From Methanoculleus methanifontis (GTDB lineage Archaea; Halobacteriota; Methanomicrobia; Methanomicrobiales; Methanoculleaceae), in the NCBI RefSeq assembly GCF_030464365.1, contig NZ_VCYI01000016.1, positions 1-61,819 on the forward strand: a stretch of DNA of 61,819 nt, read 5' to 3'. The notes below the pieces were generated by a model. The model worked only from the letters and a program-made list of their open reading frames with translations, made no database searches and was not told where the DNA came from. Below, piece by piece: positions 51,911-61,584 of this stretch. A program made the position numbers and the translations under genes. Position 1 is the stretch's first letter, and each line of letters starts with the position of its first letter.

Positions 51911-53137
51911 ATGTCGCATCTCACCGTCGATCTCGGAGGCCGGCCCGGCCTCGACTGCCGGGGATTCTGTTCGTACTGCTACTTCAAACACGTCGAGGGG
52001 ACGACGGCGTTCGGCTGCAAATACTGCCTCCCCTTCCAGAAGGGGTGCGACTACTGCACCCGGGGGGTGCGGGAAGGGTATGAGGCGTTCAAGAGCCTCA
52101 GGACGGTCGCCGACGAGACGCTCGCGAACCTCCAGGTGATGAGCGACGACGTCGACCGGATCACCATCAGCGGCGGCGGCGACCCGAGCTGCTACCCGGA
52201 GTTTCGCGACCTCATCGAACTCCTCGGCAGCATGGAGGTGCCGCTCCACATCGGCTACACCAGCGGCAAGGGGTTCGATGACCCGGGGCTGGCCGACCAC
52301 CTCATCGAGAACGGCCTCGCCGAGGTCTCCTACACGGTCTTCGCCGCCGACCCCGAACTCCGGCGGCAGTGGATGCACGACCCGACGCCGGAAGCCTCGC
52401 TCGCGGTCCTCGGCCGGCTCTGCGGCGCAATCGACGTTTACGCCGCAACAGTCGTCATCCCCGGCGTCAACGATGGCAAAACCCTCGAAGATACCTGCGC
52501 GTGGCTGGAGGAGCGCGGCGCAAAAGGGCTTATCCTGATGCGGTTTGCAAACCGGACCGACCAGGGGCTGATCCTCGGCAACGCTCCTCTCCTCGAGGGG
52601 CAGCGGGTTCACACTGTCGACGAGTTCCACGACATCGTCACCGACCTCAACGACCGGTTCTCGATGAAGATCAGCGGGACGCCGCTCGGCGACCCCTCGA
52701 TCGGGTCGCCGTTCGCGATCCTCCACGAGCCCGACCTCCTGAAGAAACTCCCGCGCGTCCGGAAGCGCGCGACGGTGATCACCGGGAGCATCGCGGCCCC
52801 ATTCCTCCAGCGGGCCCTCTCGATCCGCGGCTCGATCTCGAGGGTCGTTCCGGTCAAGAAGGAGATCGCCTGCCTCATCACCGCCGATGACCTCGCCGGG
52901 GTGAACCTAAAGAGGCTCGAAGACGTCGTTATCCTCCCCGGCCGGGCGTTCGTCCACGACGCCGAAGCAAGGACGATCCTCTCCGCCGACGGCGTCGACC
53001 GCGAGGTGGTGCGCGGCCCCGAGTCGCTGACCGCCGACGCGGAGACGAGCATGGGCATGACCCGGATGGAAGTCCTCGATAAGGAGATGGAAGGGTTCGC
53101 GGCCCTGATAAACACGATCAACCGCTACGGGCTCTGA
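51911..53137 (+). CDS. mmp10: Methyl-coenzyme M reductase arginine methyltransferase Mmp10
   Basis: A 408-residue cobalamin-dependent radical SAM enzyme that C-methylates an arginine in the McrA active site. The radical SAM triad is CRGFCSYCYF (Cys16, 20, 23), and a second Cys group FGCKYCLPFQKGCDYC (36-49) follows, as in known Mmp10. ISGGGDPSCYPEF and GYTSGKGFD help bind SAM. MSHLTVDLGGRPGLDCRG is the typical N-terminus, so the ATG at 51911 is used although a longer upstream frame exists. The mcr operon is not in the window. Confidence 0.93.
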   Translation: MSHLTVDLGGRPGLDCRGFCSYCYFKHVEGTTAFGCKYCLPFQKGCDYCTRGVREGYEAFKSLRTVADETLANLQVMSDDVDRITISGGGDPSCYPEFRDLIELLGSMEVPLHIGYTSGKGFDDPGLADHLIENGLAEVSYTVFAADPELRRQWMHDPTPEASLAVLGRLCGAIDVYAATVVIPGVNDGKTLEDTCAWLEERGAKGLILMRFANRTDQGLILGNAPLLEGQRVHTVDEFHDIVTDLNDRFSMKISGTPLGDPSIGSPFAILHEPDLLKKLPRVRKRATVITGSIAAPFLQRALSIRGSISRVVPVKKEIACLITADDLAGVNLKRLEDVVILPGRAFVHDAEARTILSADGVDREVVRGPESLTADAETSMGMTRMEVLDKEMEGFAALINTINRYGL

Positions 53138-53694
53138 CGGGCGGCCAGCCCGAGGAACCGCTCGACGATCCACTCGTTCCTGACCTCGGGGTAAAAGAGG
53201 AGCCCGTAGAGGGGAAGCGAGCGGTGCCGGATCGCCTGGACGCACCGGTCCGAGGCGGCGAGTGCTACGAACTCCCCGGGCACCCGCACGGCATGCTCGT
53301 GCACCTCGTAGGCGGGAAAGACCTCCTGCCCGGCAAAGAGTGGGTCGGGCGCGAGAACGTTTACGTCGACCATGCCGATCTCGCAGCACGGCTCAGTGCC
53401 GCCGCCGAACGCCGCCGCGAGCGCCAGCATGCCGGAGGATATCCCGAGCACCGGGCGCTCGAACGAGAGAAGCCACCGGAACAGTTCCGGCTGTTCCATG
53501 TATCCGGTATCCATCAGCGCCGTGCCGCAGAGGATCGCTGCATCCGCGCTCTTAAGGTCCGGTGCGCCGACGGCGGTGTAGTGGCGGGTGAGGAACGGTG
53601 TTTCGGCCCTGCAAAGAATTCGTTCAACCGGCGCGACGAACTCGTCGCGGGAGAGCGAGCCGTCCCGGTAGCAGAGGTCGACGACCAGGATCAT
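53125..53694 (-). CDS. Class I glutamine amidotransferase-like protein lacking the catalytic residues
   Basis: A 189-residue GATase1-fold protein. The nucleophile elbow reads LGISSGMLALAA (83-94), with Ser86 where GxCxG has Cys, and the usual FHPE reads LLFYPE (165-170), with Tyr168 replacing His; only Glu170 is retained. It therefore cannot act as a normal glutaminase and may bind a ligand or serve as a regulatory subunit. Start at 53694 forms an ATGA overlap with the upstream Dph6 gene, so the two are coupled. The 3' end overlaps convergent mmp10 by 13 nt. Confidence 0.85.
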   Translation of the reverse strand: MILVVDLCYRDGSLSRDEFVAPVERILCRAETPFLTRHYTAVGAPDLKSADAAILCGTALMDTGYMEQPELFRWLLSFERPVLGISSGMLALAAAFGGGTEPCCEIGMVDVNVLAPDPLFAGQEVFPAYEVHEHAVRVPGEFVALAASDRCVQAIRHRSLPLYGLLFYPEVRNEWIVERFLGLAARQSP

Positions 53695-54371
53695 TTCGCC
53701 ACCAGCCCCGCCCGCTCGATCCGCAGAACGCCGTTGTAGTTCCGGTAGACCTTCGACGCCTCCTCGATCGCGATCTTCTGAGCGAAGAAGGGGGCGTCGA
53801 CGACGAACGTCTCGAGTTCCCCTCCTTCGCCGGTGAGGGTGACCTGATATTTTTGGGCGATTGCCCGGAGCTCGTCGAGTGTGCGGCGGTCGATCTCCCG
53901 CCCGAGCCAGGACTCGTCGAAGGGAGCGGAGAAGACACCCGCGATGACGACCGTAAACCCGGCACCGATGAGTTCTTCCATGTAGGCTTCCTGGTCGGCG
54001 AGCCAGAGCGGGTTGAAGCACCAGAGCCCCAGTTCCCGGCATATCCGTTGAACCCTCGCCGCCTGGTAGACCGAGAGGATCGCCCCGGTGACGACCCCCT
54101 CGATCCCGTACCGTTCCCTGGCGGCGAGGAGAGCCCGTTTCAGGTCGAGGAGTTCTTCCTCCTTCTCCCCGGCCGTCTCCACCTCCACGAGCGGGAACCC
54201 CGCCGCTTCGGCCTGCAGTGCGGCAAGGCGGATGTTCGGGGTGTGGAACATGTAACTCTCCGGGTTTTGGGAGACGACCGTGATCAGACAGGCAACCTCC
54301 TCCTTCTGGATCGCCTGCCAGCAGGCGAAGAGGGAGTCTTTCCCGCCGGAGAAGAGCACGCCGAGTTTCAT
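53691..54371 (-). CDS. dph6: Diphthine-ammonia ligase Dph6
   Basis: A 226-residue PP-loop ATPase for the last step of diphthamide synthesis on elongation factor 2, amidating diphthine with ammonia and ATP. VLFSGGKDSLFACW at 5-18 is the P-loop, and the DUF71-type features SYMFHTPNIRL, GVVTGAILSVYQAARVQRIC, and LTGEGGELETFV near 181-192 are intact. Archaeal Dph6 uses free ammonia and lacks a glutaminase domain; the coupled GATase-like protein might have been such a partner but has lost its active site. ATG at 54371 is the first Met of the conserved sequence. Confidence 0.92.
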   Translation of the reverse strand: MKLGVLFSGGKDSLFACWQAIQKEEVACLITVVSQNPESYMFHTPNIRLAALQAEAAGFPLVEVETAGEKEEELLDLKRALLAARERYGIEGVVTGAILSVYQAARVQRICRELGLWCFNPLWLADQEAYMEELIGAGFTVVIAGVFSAPFDESWLGREIDRRTLDELRAIAQKYQVTLTGEGGELETFVVDAPFFAQKIAIEEASKVYRNYNGVLRIERAGLVAK

Positions 54372-54578
54372 GGTTCTTCCCGTATTGTTCTCCTCCATGG
54401 CACGATAACCCCTGCGGCGGCGGTGCCGGAAGCGGCCGGGAGGCAAAAGGCCGGATCCGGCATACCGTCCGGGAAAATCGGAGGATTTGCGACCGCCACC
54501 GCCCGGGGAGGATCAGGATTATATGCTGTCGAATCTTCACCGGATGTGAGCACCGGGGGTGTATCAGGAGGGCTCACT

Positions 54579-58313: not shown

Positions 58314-58973
58314 ATGCATGAGAAAAAGGACAAATTCGACAAAAAAGGCGCCGGCGGTATGGACGAGATCGCAAAGACCCTCTTTGCCCCGATATACCCG
58401 GTGATCGCACAGAACATCATCGATCGCTTCGGCATCACCGAAGGCACCTGCATCGACATCGGCAGCGGGCCGGCATCGCTGGCGATCGCCATTGCAGAGC
58501 GGTCCAGCCTCTCGGTCATCGCCCTGGACTCCTCAGGCGACATGCACGAGGCTGCATCGAAAAATATTGCAAACGCAGGCCTATCCGGCCGTATACGGCT
58601 CCTGCAGGGGGATGTTCACGATATCCCGCTCGCCGACGACACCGCGGACCTGATCGTCAGCAGGGGTTCGATGTTCTTCTGGGACGACATCCACACCGCC
58701 TTCCGCGAGATCTACCGGATTCTCAAACCGGGTGGAAAGACCTGCATCGGCGGGGGATTCGGCAACAAAGAACTGCGCGACGCGATCTCGGCGGAGATGA
58801 TCCGCCGCAACCCCGACTGGAAGGAGTTCAACAGGAAGAACATTTCACCGGAGAACGTGGAGCGGTTCCGGACCATGTTAAACGAGATCGGCGTCCCTTC
58901 GTTCGAGATCCTCTACGGGGACAAAGGGTTCTGGATCGTCATTTCCAAGACAGCTGGCGGTGCACTCCCATGA
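58314..58973 (+). CDS. SAM-dependent methyltransferase coupled to the radical SAM gene
   Basis: A 219-residue class I methyltransferase. CIDIGSGPASLAIAIA (46-61) is the SAM-binding loop; VIALDSSGDMHE gives the acidic strand-2 end, and LLQGDVHDIPLADDTADLIV the typical motif II-III stretch. WDDIHTAFREIYRILKPGG is the usual conserved helix. Start is ATG at 58314 (MHEKKDKFDK). Its TGA overlaps the next ATG (ATGA), so it is made with the radical SAM/binding-protein fusion. The substrate is unknown. Related methyltransferases are often tied to small-molecule or metallophore pathways; no such pathway is proven here. Confidence 0.9.
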   Translation: MHEKKDKFDKKGAGGMDEIAKTLFAPIYPVIAQNIIDRFGITEGTCIDIGSGPASLAIAIAERSSLSVIALDSSGDMHEAASKNIANAGLSGRIRLLQGDVHDIPLADDTADLIVSRGSMFFWDDIHTAFREIYRILKPGGKTCIGGGFGNKELRDAISAEMIRRNPDWKEFNRKNISPENVERFRTMLNEIGVPSFEILYGDKGFWIVISKTAGGALP

Positions 58974-60733
58974 AGTGCCCTGTCTGCGAGATCGGGTGCG
59001 ACATCGCCGAGGGGCGCTCCGGCCGGTGCAGGATGTACGTGAACCGGAACGGCACGATCGTCGAGCGGTTCCCCGGATCCTACCTGACCATGCTCCCCAT
59101 CACGATAGAAACGATGCCGATGGTTCATTTCGCCCCGAAGAGCAAATTTCTCCAGGTCAGCACCGTCGGGTGCAACTTCGCCTGCCCGGGGTGCATCTCG
59201 GAGACCCTGACCGTGCACGCCGACGCGGTGGCCGGCGCTCTCACGACCGCGTCACCGGAGGAGGTCGTGAGGCGGGCACAGGTGGAAGACTGCACCGGCA
59301 TCGTCTTCTGCCTCAACGATCCCGCCGCTTCGTATTTCACCTTCCTCGCCCTCGCGAGGGAGGCAAAAGCGGCCGGTCTCCGGGTAGGGTGCTCGACGAA
59401 CGGTTACTTCACGGAGCACGCACTCGCCGCCCTCACCCCCTTCCTCGATTTCGTCAATATCGGCCTGAAAGGGTCGTCCGACGAGCGCTACCGCGAGTGC
59501 GGGGCGAAGTCCGCCGACCCGGTCTTTCGAAACATCCGGACGCTGCACGAGAAGGGAGTGCACGTGGAGGTCTCGGCAATGTACATCCACGGCGCCGAGG
59601 ACGAGGTCCTCAACGCCGCACGGCGGGTGGCGGGGATCTCCCCCGACATCCCGCTACAGGTGATGCGGTTCGTGCCCTTCGGTGAAGCGGCTCCCGGCCT
59701 CGAACCGACGATCCGGGAATCGGAGCACGTTACAGACCGCCTGCGCACATTCCTCCGCTACGTCTACCTCTTCAACTCGCCCGGCACGGGCTACCTCAAC
59801 ACCGTCTGCCCGGTCTGCGGCACTACGGTCCTCGAACGGGAGTTCTACGGGCCCATGGGCTGCCGCACCTCCGCCGCCCTCGAGGGCGGCAGGTGCCCCT
59901 GCGGATGGCAGGCTCCCGTTCGAGGGGAGATCTGCGCAGAGCAGTATACGGAATACGGCATGCTCGGTGGTTACCGGACCACCCGGGCCATCGAGATGGC
60001 CCATGCCATACTGGTCACCCTCGGCATCCGGGACGACAAGGAGCTCGGCGCCGTTCTCGGCGATATCGTCAGGGAAGACTTCATCCGGGGCATGCACGAC
60101 CGCATTCATCAGGTTGACTCCTGGCTCGGCCTGATCGCGGAGCTCGCAGCGCGTGCGGGGCGCGAAGAGGAAGGCCGGGAACTGATCTCGTTCCTCCGGG
60201 AGCGCACCGATCGCATCGTAGCCGGCAGCGCTCTCGCCGAAACCCGTCCCCGCGTCTACTACTCGATGGGCTACCCGCTCTTTGCCCTGAACGCGGAGCG
60301 ATTCGAGAGCAACCTGGTGGAGGCAGCGGGAGGGACCTGCGTCAACAAGCGCCTCAAGCGGAAGGGAAAGCCCGGGGTCAACATCACCGTCGACGAATTG
60401 AACGAGCTAAACCCCGAATACATGTTCATCTCGGGGTTCCTCTCCTCACCGGCGTCCGACTATCTCCACTACTGCACCGAGCACGGGGTTGAGAGCGACG
60501 CCGTCGGGGCAGGGAAGGTCTACAATGTGCCTGCAGGATGGGATTTCGGCAGCCCGCGGTGGATCCTGGGGTTCATGTTTCTCGCAAACACTATCCACCC
60601 GGAGATCTTTTCCTTCGACCTGGAGCACGAGCAGCGTGAATTTTACAGGAGGTTCTACGGTATTACCGGCGATAAGTTCGTCGCGAACCGCGACTTTTCC
60701 CGGCCGGTGATCGGTGCGCCGGGGGATGAGTGA
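58970..60733 (+). CDS. Radical SAM protein fused to a periplasmic-binding-protein-like domain
   Basis: A 587-residue two-part protein. The N-terminal part has a Cys-rich start (Cys3, 6, 10, 20) and the radical SAM triad VGCNFACPGC (Cys68, 72, 75), with CSTNGYFTEHAL and FVNIGLKGSSDERY typical of pyruvate-formate-lyase-activase-like and AmmeMemoRadiSam enzymes. A second Cys group lies near 280-310 (CPVCG, then CRTS and CPCG). From about 400 to 587 the sequence changes to a binding-protein fold like BtuF/siderophore proteins (VYYSMGYPLFALNAERFESN, VDELNELNPEYMFISGF) but with no signal peptide, so it is cytoplasmic. The first gene of the pair is a methyltransferase. Function not known; the domain pairing is unusual. 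Confidence 0.85.
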   Translation: MKCPVCEIGCDIAEGRSGRCRMYVNRNGTIVERFPGSYLTMLPITIETMPMVHFAPKSKFLQVSTVGCNFACPGCISETLTVHADAVAGALTTASPEEVVRRAQVEDCTGIVFCLNDPAASYFTFLALAREAKAAGLRVGCSTNGYFTEHALAALTPFLDFVNIGLKGSSDERYRECGAKSADPVFRNIRTLHEKGVHVEVSAMYIHGAEDEVLNAARRVAGISPDIPLQVMRFVPFGEAAPGLEPTIRESEHVTDRLRTFLRYVYLFNSPGTGYLNTVCPVCGTTVLEREFYGPMGCRTSAALEGGRCPCGWQAPVRGEICAEQYTEYGMLGGYRTTRAIEMAHAILVTLGIRDDKELGAVLGDIVREDFIRGMHDRIHQVDSWLGLIAELAARAGREEEGRELISFLRERTDRIVAGSALAETRPRVYYSMGYPLFALNAERFESNLVEAAGGTCVNKRLKRKGKPGVNITVDELNELNPEYMFISGFLSSPASDYLHYCTEHGVESDAVGAGKVYNVPAGWDFGSPRWILGFMFLANTIHPEIFSFDLEHEQREFYRRFYGITGDKFVANRDFSRPVIGAPGDE

Positions 60734-60927: not shown

Positions 60928-61257
60928 CTAATGCGTCCATTCGATGATCCTGATCTCCGGGCCGACGGCCTTGATGACACAATCTCTCATGTCGGCATAA
61001 TGGGGGCAGGGGTACCCGATTGGATTGCCTCTAGTGATACACGATGCGAACACGATTGCTTCTGCTCCTCGTTCGACCAGCATCTTTGCCCGCGGTATTG
61101 CCCTCTTCCCGGGGCATCCGCCGCATGTCACAAACCCGACAATGTCGACAGGCCCGGTCTCCTGGAACGCACCTTTCCCCTCTTTAGTTACGAGGAAATC
61201 CGCGGTCCCCGGACACATATCCTCCGTCATCATACAGCGGATAATGCCTACTTTCAT
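60928..61257 (-). CDS. CGGC domain protein
   Basis: A 109-residue putative metal-binding protein. MKVGIIRCMMTEDMCPGTAD is the family-like start, TCGGCPG places the name-giving CGGC at 45-48, and FASCITRGNPIGYPCPHYADM gives further Cys and His. The CGGC family is common in methanogens and anaerobes and is assumed to bind a metal or cluster; its role is unknown. I start at ATG 61257; a longer frame to 61329 is less conserved in type. It lies on the opposite strand to the neighbouring genes and is followed by the terminator hairpin region. Confidence 0.85.
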   Translation of the reverse strand: MKVGIIRCMMTEDMCPGTADFLVTKEGKGAFQETGPVDIVGFVTCGGCPGKRAIPRAKMLVERGAEAIVFASCITRGNPIGYPCPHYADMRDCVIKAVGPEIRIIEWTH

Positions 61258-61584
61258 ACGAATGAATTCTCCTGGTATCTGATAGTCCTTCCGATAGTGG
61301 ACATCTCCGATCTCCGTCGAATGCCTCATTCTAAAGGTTGCTTATGCTCGGCAGGAGAAGACCTATAAAAACCGGAGATCAACCGCCGGCACGGACATGG
61401 TTCTTACGGCATCCGGAGTTGTTTTTCGTAGCCTCTCCGGGGTTTCGGTTGATCCTCTGTTCTGTGGCGAGTTCCGGTCGGCGCCCGAAGAGACCTTAAA
61501 GACTTCGTTTACCTCATTGCAATGCTCCTTCCATTATCCGACAGCGACACAGCCTTCATTAACCACCGGGATCAATACGCCACT
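61258..61584. other. Intergenic region upstream of the truncated lipoprotein gene
   Basis: About 330 bases between the divergent CGGC gene and the lipoprotein gene. TATAAAAACC near 61364-61373 is a good box A-like element, but no convincing gene follows it directly; a low-quality frame from 61397 to 61588 lacks a ribosome binding site. No repeats or hairpins stand out. Confidence 0.4.

Follow-up and report, generated by a model that had tools for sequence, protein, structure and literature searches.

The question addressed here is why an archaeon should keep part of a solute-binding protein inside the cell, attached to a radical SAM enzyme and encoded next to a methyltransferase. The gene pair concerned is from Methanoculleus methanifontis and lies in a stretch of 61,819 nucleotides, referred to as the window. 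The first gene (58314..58973, + strand) encodes a SAM-dependent class I methyltransferase (MT) of 219 aa, assigned from Pfam Methyltransf_11 and its neighbourhood; the second (58970..60733, + strand) encodes a 587 aa fusion of a radical SAM domain and half a binding protein. The MT gene starts with the ATG at 58314 and its stop codon ends at 58973, and the ATG of the fusion is at 58970, which gives the ATGA overlap already described in the original prediction. The sequence at this point reads ...cccATGAagtgc....

Purifying selection acts on both genes (pN/pS 0.07-0.21), and the ATGA overlap is present in 13 of 32 MT/fusion pairs. Evolutionary distances of MT and fusion are correlated (r = 0.90 across 33 pairs), a value which common ancestry alone could also yield. 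MT belongs to the class I SAM-dependent methyltransferases, with a Methyltransf_11/25 domain above cutoff (Methyltransf_11, 76.5 bits against a cutoff of 21.2); its single-sequence structure model was unusable (pLDDT 45).

Domains of the fusion protein

The radical SAM half matches the Pfam Radical_SAM model at residues 64-212 (E 1.4e-16, 61.5 bits against a cutoff of 29.5) and contains the CxxxCxxC cluster motif (C68, C72 and C75; 59171..59194, + strand), which is invariant in all 39 full-length homologues. It is flanked by two further cysteine groups, an N-terminal one (C3, C6, C10 and C20; 58976..59029, + strand), invariant in 39/39 and common with the AmmeMemoRadiSam enzyme, and a C-terminal one (C280, C283, C309 and C311; 59807..59902, + strand), invariant in 38-39 of 39. 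Altogether 13 cysteines of the fusion are invariant in 39/39 homologues, and C311 and C502 are found in 38/39. In structure comparisons, the radical SAM half of the AlphaFold2 (AF2) model matched pyruvate formate-lyase activating enzyme (Z 16.7) and NifB (Z 15.0). These results bear out the predicted radical SAM core with extra cysteine groups and place the protein in the radical SAM superfamily, with the CxxxCxxC motif in a partial TIM barrel. Two cysteines are not shared with AmmeMemoRadiSam enzymes: C141, which stands three residues before the TNG motif, and the lobe residue C502. C108 and C177 were also considered as family-specific barrel cysteines and were rejected, as both have counterparts in AmrS and only C141 differs. 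The window fusion scores 114.2 bits with TIGR04337, below the cutoff of 220, and by its sequence the radical SAM half is placed as a sister of the AmmeMemoRadiSam enzymes, not as a member. Memo and AMMECR1 proteins, the expected partners in an AmmeMemoRadiSam system, did not appear among the annotated conserved neighbours.

The C-terminal part was originally predicted to be a BtuF-like binding domain without a signal peptide. The BtuF/TroA-type fold and the missing signal peptide were confirmed (the fusion begins with MKCPVC, carrying a Cys motif), but what is present corresponds only to the second lobe of a class III (FecCD-linked) binding protein together with its inter-lobe helix (about residues 385-566; 60122..60667, + strand). 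In the hhalign comparison with the binding proteins of related operons (99.8 %, E 2.6e-28) the C-terminus covered columns 156 to 349 of 362, and as the alignments start only at column 156, the first lobe is absent. phmmer aligned the same part to residues 153-333 of 4hn9; hmmsearch with a profile matched 4pag, 4hn9, 4ovk, IsdE and MolA. At the place where the first lobe would sit, in front of the inter-lobe helix at which the alignments begin, there is a short stretch of about 50 residues which is all helical according to DSSP of the model (residues 335-384; 59972..60121, + strand). The fusion thus shares the second lobe and inter-lobe helix with class III solute-binding proteins and lacks their two-lobed structure and export signal.

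The structure prediction proposed as a check of the C-terminus agreed with a binding-protein fold, as the AF2 model matched 4hn9 with Z 20.3 over 216 residues; the model was built from seven sequences, with a mean pLDDT of 65.6 and a pTM of 0.46, and its domain arrangement is not reliable. The Peripla_BP_2 match of the fusion (20.2 bits) is under the Pfam cutoff of 27.5. The closest likeness is not to BtuF, as had been suggested: the nearest solved relatives are 4pag, 4hn9, 4ovk and MolA, and the fused lobe is nearer to 4pag and 4hn9 (ligand unknown) and to IsdE (heme) than to MolA. Conservation within the lobe is highest in three ligand-side loops (residues 431-441, 486-494 and 520-531, together spanning 60260..60562, + strand), with 3.31 versus 2.35 bits per column; the block permutation p of 0.007 is a guide only, the loops having been picked by eye from the binding-protein alignment.

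Operon company and distribution

The proposed genome-context search for the MT/radical SAM pair revealed a conserved operon. In relatives the usual gene order is binding protein, MT, fusion, FecCD permease and ATPase, and neighbourhood clustering of 46 loci, which are partly redundant, found MT in 40, binding proteins in 33, FecCD permeases in 28 and ATPases in 27. The importer encoded along with the pair in these relatives is a type II ABC importer of the FecCD type, and MolA is a relative of its binding proteins. TonB-dependent receptors are often added at the loci of Gram-negative bacteria, and DUF364, FmdE and a HypB/CobW-like GTPase at scattered loci. Of 294 genomes sampled from the phylum, 34 gave matches with E < 1e-60 (a few of them radical-SAM-only), as did 9 of 345 genomes of a bacterial phylum around Pelobacter, eight of these with the fusion. 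The MT/fusion pair is an old family. No relative of the fusion was found in viral contigs, and plasmids gave AmrS-like and binding-protein matches only. As anticipated in the original prediction, no description of a gene set with MT, fusion and importer was found in the literature, subscription papers lying outside the search.

Some loci depart from the common arrangement. In two genomes, G033 and G153 (L053 9332-10393; L070 8690-9715), a break close to the domain boundary divides the fusion, by natural fission or decay, and frameshifted, broken or TAG-interrupted copies occur in single genomes (L014 8001-9747; L018 8001-8461; L100 9640-12030). At two loci radical-SAM-only relatives lie by importer genes (L071 7721-9882; L101 8920-11060) and are followed by a protein (c54) whose family has no match in Pfam. 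This protein was considered as a detached lobe and rejected, as it has no visible resemblance to the lobe.

The window pair has no importer of its own and represents an importer-free branch of the same family. A copy with a full importer, 56 % identical, is present on another contig (C12) of the same genome. In Methanoculleus sp. MH98A, which is 99 % identical to the window (L012), the window-type fusion is present, and the C12-type cluster has lost its fusion and kept MT and the importer (L107 4768-7514); from this arrangement it follows that the window pair may serve the C12-type importer. Methanogenium marinum (L015) has a pair of the window type in divergent orientation to an importer cluster.

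The CobO gene just upstream, on which a lead to corrinoids or tetrapyrroles had been built, adjoins the pair only in relatives that are at least 99 % identical (L011, L012) and is already absent beside the 94 % identical pair of L013. A link to CobO or corrinoids was rejected because this adjacency is not conserved, and the operator, RNA-motif and neighbour evidence from relatives (see below) points to molybdenum or tungsten (Mo/W) instead. The pair accordingly does not share the conserved link to corrinoid genes expected of corrinoid salvage with BtuF. A CGGC-domain protein encoded downstream of the pair on the opposite strand (window 60928-61329) is retained beside it in L011-L013. Other genes of the window include that of another radical SAM enzyme, the methyl-coenzyme M reductase arginine methylase Mmp10 (51917-53137; TIGR03278, 587 bits), and, on the minus strand (53125-54446), the archaeal diphthine-ammonia ligase Dph6 beside a class I glutamine-amidotransferase-like protein.

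Operators, RNA motifs and neighbouring genes

The palindrome TTATGTT-N6-AACATAA was found upstream of the operon in Methanosarcinaceae. Ten genomes of this family (29.5 Mb) contain 14 exact copies, against 0.34 expected from dinucleotide composition, and all 14 are located immediately upstream of genes: five before this operon, three before modA-type transporters, two before formylmethanofuran dehydrogenase operons and four before S-layer genes. At this operon the site is present with at most two mismatches in 10/10 genomes and with at most one in nine. Taking into account that the layout (20 bp) is the same as that of the ModE site before E. coli modA (read from NC_000913), and that ModE was reported to control modABC in Methanosarcinales (PMC9765008), we read the palindrome as a putative Mo/W (ModE-type) operator. 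By this reading the family would belong to a Mo/W (ModE) regulon in its Methanosarcinaceae operons only. The S-layer genes with the same palindrome upstream are of the PF07752 family (sites at L130 5973-5992, L131 5968-5987, L133 6002-6021 and L064 12843-12862); in L064 the gene follows directly after the importer operon. These S-layer proteins may take part in Mo/W uptake at the cell surface.

The Pelobacter operon is headed by two tandem Moco-II motifs (L016 314-433), and the other two Moco-II motifs of this genome precede an operon for a molybdopterin-binding protein and a Mo-hydroxylase and a gene for a FeMo-co-domain protein. The strict inverted repeat in the tandem motifs could be a protein-binding DNA site, not an RNA element. 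As to neighbouring genes, in L050, which belongs to the window clade (support 1.0), modABC immediately precedes the MT-fusion pair, and in L095 modABC is divergent to it; two MoeA genes together with formylmethanofuran dehydrogenase genes were found in L051, and in L062 both FmdE and a modA/wtpA-like gene lie within 8 kb. Such Mo/W neighbours occur at only about five of the 46 loci, not far above chance proximity, so that neighbour evidence alone would be weak, and the Mo/W argument is carried by the operator. Among relatives with a characterised ligand, MolA (3psa) is the best match to the operon binding proteins, clearly for one of them and tied with YiuA (iron-catecholate) for another; MolA binds molybdate and tungstate (PMC4031551).

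In the window's own genome, the surroundings of the window pair and of the C12 copy showed neither an operator nor a Mo/W gene. The best ModE-type site at the window pair has four mismatches, and the pattern is not enriched in Methanoculleus. A search for a window-specific operator yielded none; a Methanoculleus palindrome seen at L007 occurs once per genome and was uninformative. As the window pair has neither importer nor operator of its own, we infer its Mo/W role from its homologues.

Proposed function, alternatives and known systems

The ModE-shaped operator, the Moco-II motifs and the modABC genes before a close relative of the window pair suggest that the system most likely serves Mo/W uptake, and we put the probability that the operon family functions in Mo/W acquisition at about 80 per cent. 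In the envisaged mechanism the importer, with the TonB receptor in Gram-negatives, would bring the metal, Mo or W, into the cell within an organic complex and not as a bare oxyanion. The cytoplasmic half binding protein would recognise the same complex and close it against the radical SAM barrel like half a clamshell; the 5'-deoxyadenosyl radical and the partner MT would then alter the organic ligand, and the metal thus freed would pass to Mo/W-pterin enzymes such as formylmethanofuran dehydrogenase. An organic cargo is assumed because free cytoplasmic oxyanions would need neither TonB receptors nor a binding-protein lobe. The TonB receptors at bacterial loci argue for a bulky chelate, and they are equally typical of iron siderophores. 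Of the earlier view that a bound cofactor or metallophore is presented for modification, the cytoplasmic binding-protein part beside a radical enzyme and its tie to metal-complex uptake were upheld, with half a domain in place of a whole one; that the bound ligand would be presented to the radical active site is what we infer. That the pair forms the cytoplasmic enzymatic part of a Mo/W acquisition system, with all details of this mechanism, is in our estimate not quite an even bet. The fuller proposal of a dedicated anaerobic Mo/W-metallophore pathway, in which an organic complex is imported and then opened or remodelled by MT and a radical SAM enzyme with a half-binding-protein clamp, is offered tentatively, and the odds are against it.

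The main rival, in our estimate rather unlikely, is that MT and the fusion do not degrade but build a small-molecule Mo/W chelator, metallophore biosynthesis being co-encoded with the importer and the lobe holding the precursor or product. Metallophore synthesis genes often adjoin uptake genes, and several methyltransferases and DUF364 cluster with the fusion in L007, L058, L060 and L067. DUF364 was predicted to act in siderophore- or pterin-like synthesis (PMC2954201). However, a binding-protein lobe is suited to a metal-loaded complex rather than to a free chelator, and the neighbours include no conserved exporter, which is mildly against synthesis; an ABC-2 type transporter is nearby in the Methanoculleus loci only.

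It is also conceivable, though unlikely, that an iron(III)-siderophore, heme or corrinoid is imported and processed and that Mo/W control is secondary or limited to some lineages. The FecCD permease would fit such a cargo, as would the TonB receptors (84.5 bits with the TonB-siderophore model, below its cutoff of 223.5), the tie of YiuA with MolA for one binding protein, the position of IsdE as the next relative of the fused lobe and CobO beside the window pair. A precedent is known in the radical SAM methylases of the ChuW type, which break down heme anaerobically. The operator and Moco-II evidence speaks against this explanation, as does the lack of any heme or corrinoid gene conserved beside the family; CobO adjoins the pair in the closest strains only. 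The cobalamin riboswitch in L100 was rejected as a clue to the ligand, as it lies downstream of the fusion, before cbiK, and it likewise counts against a corrinoid. We regard as very improbable that the fusion is a regulator or sensor, its lobe sensing a metal ligand, or that it modifies a protein such as a Mo/W enzyme or a subunit of the importer. Its nearest relatives among radical SAM enzymes, AmmeMemoRadiSam and glycyl-radical activases, do act on proteins or are uncharacterised, but the conserved neighbours include no gene for a glycyl-radical enzyme or a peptide substrate.

Methane formation requires formylmethanofuran dehydrogenases with Mo or W, two metals that are scarce in sulfidic habitats. 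If Mo/W acquisition is the true function, an uptake operon that is regulated and brings radical chemistry of its own would represent an unrecognised route to these metals and an undescribed step in their acquisition by anaerobes. A widespread group of enzymes, sister to the uncharacterised AmmeMemoRadiSam enzymes, would thereby gain a function, and the fusion would be an enzyme that borrowed half a transport protein as substrate holder. Many Methanosarcinaceae are cultivable and some are genetically tractable, which makes the idea testable.

Among known systems, the MolBC-A importer of Haemophilus influenzae (PMC4031551), a molybdate/tungstate importer, resembles that of the MT/fusion operons in being a type II ABC importer with a related binding protein and in its link to Mo/W; as described, it includes neither a radical SAM enzyme nor a methyltransferase or TonB receptor. 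With the class III FecCD-type binding proteins (MolA HI1472, CeuE HP1561, YiuA, BtuF; 4pag, 4hn9, 4ovk) the fusion shares the second lobe, the inter-lobe helix and conserved ligand-side loops, whereas it has no first lobe and no signal peptide, is cytoplasmic and carries the lobe behind an enzyme. The AmmeMemoRadiSam enzyme (TIGR04337, AmrS) has in common with it the radical SAM fold, the N- and C-terminal cysteine groups and C108, but the fusions score 89-129 bits with this model (cutoff 220), in contrast to 346 for the true AmrS of the same genome (contig C2), and differ by C141, by CxC in place of CxxC and by the lobe. Pyruvate formate-lyase activating enzyme and NifB resemble the fusion in the radical SAM barrel and differ from it in their cysteine groups and partner genes, with no close sequence relation.
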